From a virus, in the IMG/VR virus record IMGVR_UViG_3300030943_000046, positions 1 to 44,132 of that record: DNA of 44,132 nucleotides; one strand, given 5' to 3'. A model generated the notes under the pieces. That model was not told where the DNA came from and ran no database searches. It saw only the letters and a list, made by a program, of their open reading frames with translations. Both the position numbers and the translations under genes were made by a program. Shown piece after piece: positions 1,745 through 2,037 of the stretch (positions are counted from its first letter, which is position 1; each line of letters starts with the position of its first letter).

Positions 1745-2037
1745 GGGTGACAGATGGTGACGGGTGGGTGACGCATCATTTTTGATACGTCACCCATGAA
1801 AAGCAAGGCGGTGCAATAGTTTGAAGGACGGGTGACGGATGGTGACGCGTTTTTCGCGCGCATACGTATATGCAAGCGGGGTTCGGGGGAGACCTTTTTG
1901 AAAAACTTTCTTATGCGTATAGGGCTGTTTAATCCGTCACCATCCGTCACCCATGAGGTAAATATATGATATAAAAAAAGAAAACAGGGTGACGGATCAA
2001 AAATGATGCGTCACCAACCCGTCACCATCCGTCACCC
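1745..2037. repeat. Nested, mirror-symmetric inverted repeat region (iteron-like; candidate origin or operator)
   Basis: This is the whole gap between the primase and the next gene. The 51-bp arms 1745-1795 and 1987-2037 are inverted copies matching at 48 of 51 positions by my comparison. Inside them, 1830-1847 and 1934-1952 are inverted copies of GGGTGACGGATGGTGACG, and 1862-1869 pairs with 1913-1920 (ATACGTAT/ATGCGTAT). All three pairs centre on base 1891, while the spacers between them are unrelated. GTGAC or its complement occurs 12 times. The right half is AT-rich around 1955-1986. The position after an SF3 helicase gene suggests an iteron origin. A regulator-binding array or a MITE-like element are alternatives, though I see no target duplication. 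Confidence 0.85.

Follow-up and report, generated by a model that had tools for sequence, protein, structure and literature searches.

The window, the whole of an IMG/VR record of 44132 bases, opens within a gene for a P4-family (D5-type) primase/SF3 helicase (3–1733, + strand; PF08706, 7.6e-19), the 5' end of which is missing from the contig. A second contig of nearly the same phage (L005/L026; 99.8% identity over 4318 bp) completes the primase at 614 aa, and this full-length copy on L005 matches TIGR01613, 'phage/plasmid primase, P4 family', with 185.3 bits against a cut-off of 108.7. The presence of terminase, portal and integrase genes on the contig identifies the virus as a temperate tailed phage, and its host probably belongs to the Afipia/Bradyrhizobium group, since the nearest primases are located in Afipia and Bradyrhizobium genomes. 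The next gene downstream (2058–2897, + strand) encodes a protein of 279 aa, phrog_9306, with no assigned function; it is conserved right behind the array described below in most Rhizobiales-type phages, and behind many alphaproteobacterial arrays, and is absent behind other arrays.

The mirrored array between primase and downstream gene

Between the end of the primase gene (stop at 1733) and the start of the downstream gene (2058) stand twelve copies of a 7-base word, GGTGACG or its complement, with one copy reading GGTGACA, and the first copy lies 13 bp past the stop. The twelve GTGAC/GTCAC pentamers counted in a preliminary description of this DNA are indeed present within less than 300 bp, against 0.6 expected. 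From left to right, the array consists of an outer triplet GGTGACA, GGTGACG, GGTGACG (1746–1773, comprising 1746–1752, 1756–1762 and 1767–1773; + strand), an inverted word (1788–1794, − strand, CGTCACC on the + strand) and an inner doublet (1831–1847, comprising 1831–1837 and 1841–1847; + strand), followed by a right inner doublet (1935–1951, comprising 1935–1941 and 1945–1951; − strand), a right inverted word (1988–1994, + strand) and a right outer triplet (2009–2036, comprising 2009–2015, 2020–2026 and 2030–2036; − strand). Measured from base 1891, the words lie on both sides at 142, 132, 121, 100 (the inverted word), 57 and 47 bp. A scan that seeks word and mirror centre jointly gave a mirror score of 5.75 at the array, as against a maximum of 2.25 elsewhere in the 44-kb window and of 1.75 in 1000 first-order Markov sequences.

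A mirror map about base 1891 bears out most of the symmetry first described, namely 51-bp outer arms, 18-bp inner arms and a common centre. The outer arms (1745–1795 and 1987–2037) are 51 nt long and 94% complementary (48/51 matched), the inner arms, which start at 1830 and end at 1952, match at 18/18, and the 34-bp spacers, described as equal in length and unrelated in sequence, are mirrored at only 6/34 positions, which is chance level. Of the three nested repeats proposed, the outer and inner pairs stand and the third calls for a correction: the '8-bp core' pair (1862–1869/1913–1920) matches at 7/8 and has no counterpart in relatives and, because the core is not symmetric in relatives (29% mirrored), the pair probably lies outside the functional symmetry. 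In the window, though not in relatives, mirroring extends to the bases that separate the outer words (15/15, within 1745–1795 and 1987–2037), which suggests that one outer module was recently copied in inverted orientation or converted. There is a small hairpin inside each outer arm, and an Rfam search of the window gave no match at the gathering threshold. GC skew, named earlier as a check for an origin at this site, shows no sign change there.

Between the inner doublets lies a core (1848–1934, no strand assigned) with a GC content of 0.46, compared with 0.66 for the genome, and of 0.35 in its right half, which makes it a candidate melting region. Despite this relative AT-richness it contains a G-rich element. 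Alignment of cores revealed two elements independent of the word, both on the + strand: a directional GGGGTTCGGGG adjoining the centre (1878–1888) and TTTCTTATGCGTATA (1907–1921), for which relatives have TTCTCATGCGTA and similar sequences. In the same alignment GGGGTTCGGGG is retained in most Rhizobiales-type origins with other words, and the cores of this type run directionally, whatever the word, from GGGGTTCGGGG to a TTCTYATGCGTA-like sequence. The core may serve as a melting or priming site.

Long inverted repeats such as these might also mark a mobile element (MITE), a recombination site or a telomere-resolution site, a reading to which we give almost no credence. All matches within the phage fall inside the element itself, and the scattering through host genomes that a MITE would lead one to expect comes down to two 30-bp partial matches among 297 genomes from the group to which the host probably belongs. 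Apart from the window, a single viral contig contained the 17-mer several times, and it proved to be the second contig of the same phage; 22 other contigs carried one chance-like copy each, with no recognizable D5 gene in the stretch examined. No dispersed copies with target duplications were found in the phage, the viral contigs or part of the genome collections, and the centre is not palindromic, which, as already argued in the preliminary description, speaks against telomere resolution. One further contig stretch (L033:4091–4391) contains eight GTGAC/GTCAC pentamers in 300 bp, again with no recognizable D5 gene in the stretch examined.

Arrays behind related primase genes

Primase loci were drawn from viral contigs, genomes and phage records, and 233 of them have a complete 3' end. 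A mirror score of at least 2.5 was reached in 101/231 post-primase gaps and in 0/1838 control windows from the same loci. Among the Rhizobiales-type phages the type-1 half-distances are 44.6 ± 2.9 and 51.9 ± 3.3 bp for the inner words, 103.6 ± 2.8 bp for the inverted word, the slot filled at 100 bp in the window, and 119.8 ± 2.6, 130.1 ± 2.6 and 139.7 ± 2.5 bp for the outer words; these values come from 27 non-redundant loci with many different words, including a few loci from other groups. The word carried on this scaffold changes from phage to phage, being GGTGACG in the window and CGAGGGT, TGTAGGG, TGTCGGG, CAGGGTT, GCAGGGT, GTGTAGG and others elsewhere. Of 24 loci inspected, all picked for their high scores, 22 have a word with no more than one mismatch in almost every one of the twelve slots; in the remaining two, orientation or centre had been mis-set. 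Bacillus phages share the first layout, with (A/G/T)GTTA(C/A) words at −130, −120, −102 (inverted), −55 and −46, and a second scaffold occurs in Rhodobacterales-type phages (L258, L263 and L073 among them), with three inner and three outer words, none inverted, and six words per half where complete (L258 and L263).

No strong array stands directly behind the primase in 81 of the 155 loci outside the Bacillus scan, and in most of these none was detected. In four loci (L231, L055, L118 and L036, the last being RR1-A) inserted sequence or genes have displaced the array, which is found 461 to 2041 bp downstream of the primase and so behaves as a separate element.

In 18 relatives, mirroring amounts to 82% for the words, as compared with 40% for the positions between words, 40% for the spacers and 29% for the core. 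Since only the words are mirrored, it is protein sites and their spacing that appear to be kept, not base pairing. The fixed geometry with free spacers put forward in the preliminary description thus recurs in relatives, without the conserved arms expected to accompany it: the words alone are mirrored, and the word itself changes, an exchange between relatives that had not been foreseen. The same figures bear on a cruciform or stem-loop origin of the type put forward for pRN1 and for Bordetella phage BIP-1 (PMC4234260), in which the arms would pair with themselves and the structure would be recognized. The arms of the window are long and nearly perfect, with a hairpin in each outer one, and in pRN1 a stem-loop that follows the replicase gene serves as origin, yet we consider this reading very improbable: no extended stem of the pRN1/BIP-1 kind is kept in the 18 relatives, and BPP-1, the sister of BIP-1, has mirrored word doublets nearby. 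The doublets of Bordetella phage BPP-1 (L292), TTGCCTCGTTTGCCTCGT ... ACGAGGCAAACGAGGCAA, surround a core of about 70 bp and are found between bbp28 and bbp27, some 500 bp beyond the end of the primase gene.

The putative reader of the word

The C-terminal part of the window primase, encoded by about 1395–1670, is predicted by AF2 to fold as a winged helix (pLDDT 89). The nearest structures found by Foldseek, with weak E-values of which the best was 0.01, were the C-terminal part of AsfvPrimPol, the RFX DNA-binding domain and Orc/Cdc6, and profile matches of the domain were to AsfvPrimPol and to a 797-aa DNA primase chain, 7ola. DNA reading by RFX depends largely on its wing, and this would be in keeping with the association between wing and word described below.

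Two phi105-like Bacillus phages (L122 and L124) are 98% identical in the N-terminus plus helicase of the primase and 69% identical in its C-terminal domain, and their words differ. Well to either side their DNA is 97–99% identical; within 300 bp of the primase stop in both directions identity falls to 49–78%, and a milder drop (82–93%) precedes this stretch. Because identity falls over both, the C-terminal domain and the array are taken to be replaced together as a cassette in Bacillus phages; since the two are adjacent, joint replacement alone is no proof of recognition. The four Bacillus words need 15 changes on a tree of the N-terminus plus helicase (FastTree, with many weak branches). Among 400 variable columns of the whole primase in Bacillus phages, those best associated with the word were 758, 761, 755 and 757, and all four map to the β-hairpin that forms the wing in the predicted structure. 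The first base of the word can be predicted from residue 758 (K with G, G with A, and Y, F or R with T) and the last from residue 755 (N with A, and K or R with C), each in 52/52 non-redundant Bacillus loci. For residue 758, 7/7 independent pairs agree (p = 0.016); for residue 755, 4/4 do, which is too few for significance. The recognition helix (NRAFYRQLE) is nearly constant in these phages, as is the GTTA core of the word. Over the wide set of loci, a partial Mantel test did not single out the C-terminal domain (word with C-terminal domain given helicase, 0.074, 54/2000; word with helicase given C-terminal domain, 0.225, 0/2000). This result we count as evidence against a link between word and C-terminal domain; it is the close-range comparison of Bacillus phages, rather than the wide Mantel test, that we take to be informative.

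The preliminary description had also named the 279-aa downstream protein (2058–2897) as a possible reader, which in an otherwise similar origin would bind the word and recruit the helicase. Its gene is conserved beside 50 of the 74 non-Bacillus arrays. It is absent behind the other 24, however, and behind all 27 Bacillus arrays (0/27), where the choice of word maps to the primase wing instead; in P4 and in SaPIs, moreover, it is a domain of the initiator itself that binds (PMC4234260, PMC7581432). An origin read by the downstream protein therefore seems very unlikely to us. As a general reader of such arrays the protein was rejected, the gene being missing behind so many of them.

Relation to known origins and a proposed mechanism

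The closest known systems are the P4 ori/crr and the SaPI/PICI origins. P4 ori, annotated with six 8-bp type 1 repeats, resembles the left half of the window array in having six repeats in the order three, one inverted, two (>>><>>), with spacings of 10-11-22-43-10 compared with 10-11-21-43-10 in the window half. A simple null model that randomizes the orientations, and the spacings within an unchanged span, gives this agreement a probability of about 3e-6. The start of the P4 word, GGTGAACA, resembles that of GGTGACG, and P4 alpha and the window primase both belong to TIGR01613 and share a Pox_D5-type C-terminal domain. The two systems differ in the number of halves: P4 ori has a single one, and the window has two, placed together and facing each other. 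P4 has a second cis site, crr, kilobases from ori, with two 120-bp repeats of five type 1 repeats each, whereas a scan of the whole window found one array only and no separate crr-like region, on a contig that may be incomplete. In addition, a family scan of the window primase found neither the Zn-ribbon nor the Toprim primase domain of P4 alpha. P4 alpha binds the repeats of its own ori through a winged-helix domain (PMC4234260). In SaPIs, the C-terminal domain of Rep recognizes iterons directly downstream of its own gene (PMC7581432), and PICI origins consist of two iteron sets around an AT-rich region (PMC6092414). The window resembles these satellites, whose initiators are Rep or Pri-Rep, in having its array immediately 3' of the initiator gene and two sets of sites flanking a core (PMC7581432, PMC6092414), a likeness of placement. 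It differs from them in being a full tailed temperate phage with terminase, portal and integrase, and its core, AT-rich relative to the genome (GC 0.46 against 0.66), contains a G-rich element.

Two dairy phages provide annotated origins at the corresponding spot. Lactobacillus phage A2 has a rep_origin directly behind the primase, and in Streptococcus phage Sfi21 the sequence behind the primase is annotated as 'origin of replication, 302 bp non-coding region, phage inhibitory sequence'; both contain mirrored inner and outer words. Their inner doublets, at about ±38 and ±46, and their outer words, more than 90 bp from the centre on either side, are laid out much as in the window, and they differ from it in their words (ACGGGAG; GTTAC), in their AT-rich cores and in outer words that are fewer or less regular. 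These annotations also bear on whether the array behind the primase could have a regulatory function, for instance as an operator, and not be an origin. The site is intergenic, and symmetric multi-site arrays occur as operators too, but the scaffold is an annotated origin in A2 and Sfi21, half of it equals P4 ori, and arrays follow P4-family primases in phages of different bacterial phyla, so that a regulatory role in place of an origin strikes us as highly unlikely.

An origin for an SF3 helicase is supported because the same place and geometry recur in many phages with P4-family primases, because the A2 and Sfi21 origins are annotated at the corresponding spot, and because the half-array can be superimposed on P4 ori; the origin read by the SF3 helicase that was proposed at the outset is in this respect upheld. 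That the array is an origin of the P4/SaPI kind, in a double, mirrored form that the phage's own primase would read, is well supported by these comparisons. We consider it very likely that 1745–2037 is a replication origin at which each half would receive a hexamer through the C-terminal winged helix of the primase, the core would be melted, and word and reader would be exchanged together.

Array, geometry and exchange of the word were seen directly in the analysis, as were, in Bacillus phages, the replacement of the cassette and the association of wing and word; from them we infer binding, one hexamer per half, melting and a bidirectional start. Our working hypothesis is that the primase-helicase encoded just upstream reads the word through its C-terminal winged helix, and that the six copies of the 7-base word in each half, in the fixed order three, one inverted, two, would place six subunits, that is one hexamer, so that two rings would face each other across the 87-bp core. 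One hexamer per half is suggested by the six words per half together with the ring form of SF3 helicases. The relatively AT-rich core would then be melted and, after primer synthesis, two forks would leave in opposite directions. The word would be free to change, as it need only fit the wing and helix of its reader, while the spacing would be dictated by how the helicase assembly is shaped; as neighbours, the word and the domain that reads it could be replaced together.

Precedents are known for each element, namely the P4 iterons, the placement of the SaPI origin and its reading by a C-terminal domain, and the origins of dairy phages. A limited literature search, which does not imply absence, found no paper that describes an origin scaffold shared by D5 phages; within that search we likewise met no description of a spacing rule common to P4, alphaproteobacterial, Bacillus and Streptococcus phages, nor of word exchange on a fixed scaffold, cassette replacement or a wing–word association. 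With slightly more confidence than doubt, we favour a general view in which a rigid scaffold is common to phages of different phyla and its twelve sites seat two hexamers, while the word and the wing form an exchangeable cassette with a simple residue-to-base code. Origin types would then resemble plasmid incompatibility groups, and their diversity may be driven by origin decoys or co-resident prophages.

One measurable scaffold would tie together P4 ori, the dairy-phage origins, the satellite (PICI) origins and many uncharacterized phages, and origins should in consequence be findable from sequence alone behind P4-family primases. The association of two residues with two bases makes co-evolution of initiator and origin directly testable, and the exchangeable word allows predictions as to which phages could use, or poison, one another's origins. 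Finally, the fixed spacing, with six sites per half, would place concrete constraints on the loading of an SF3 double hexamer in the case of D5-type helicases.
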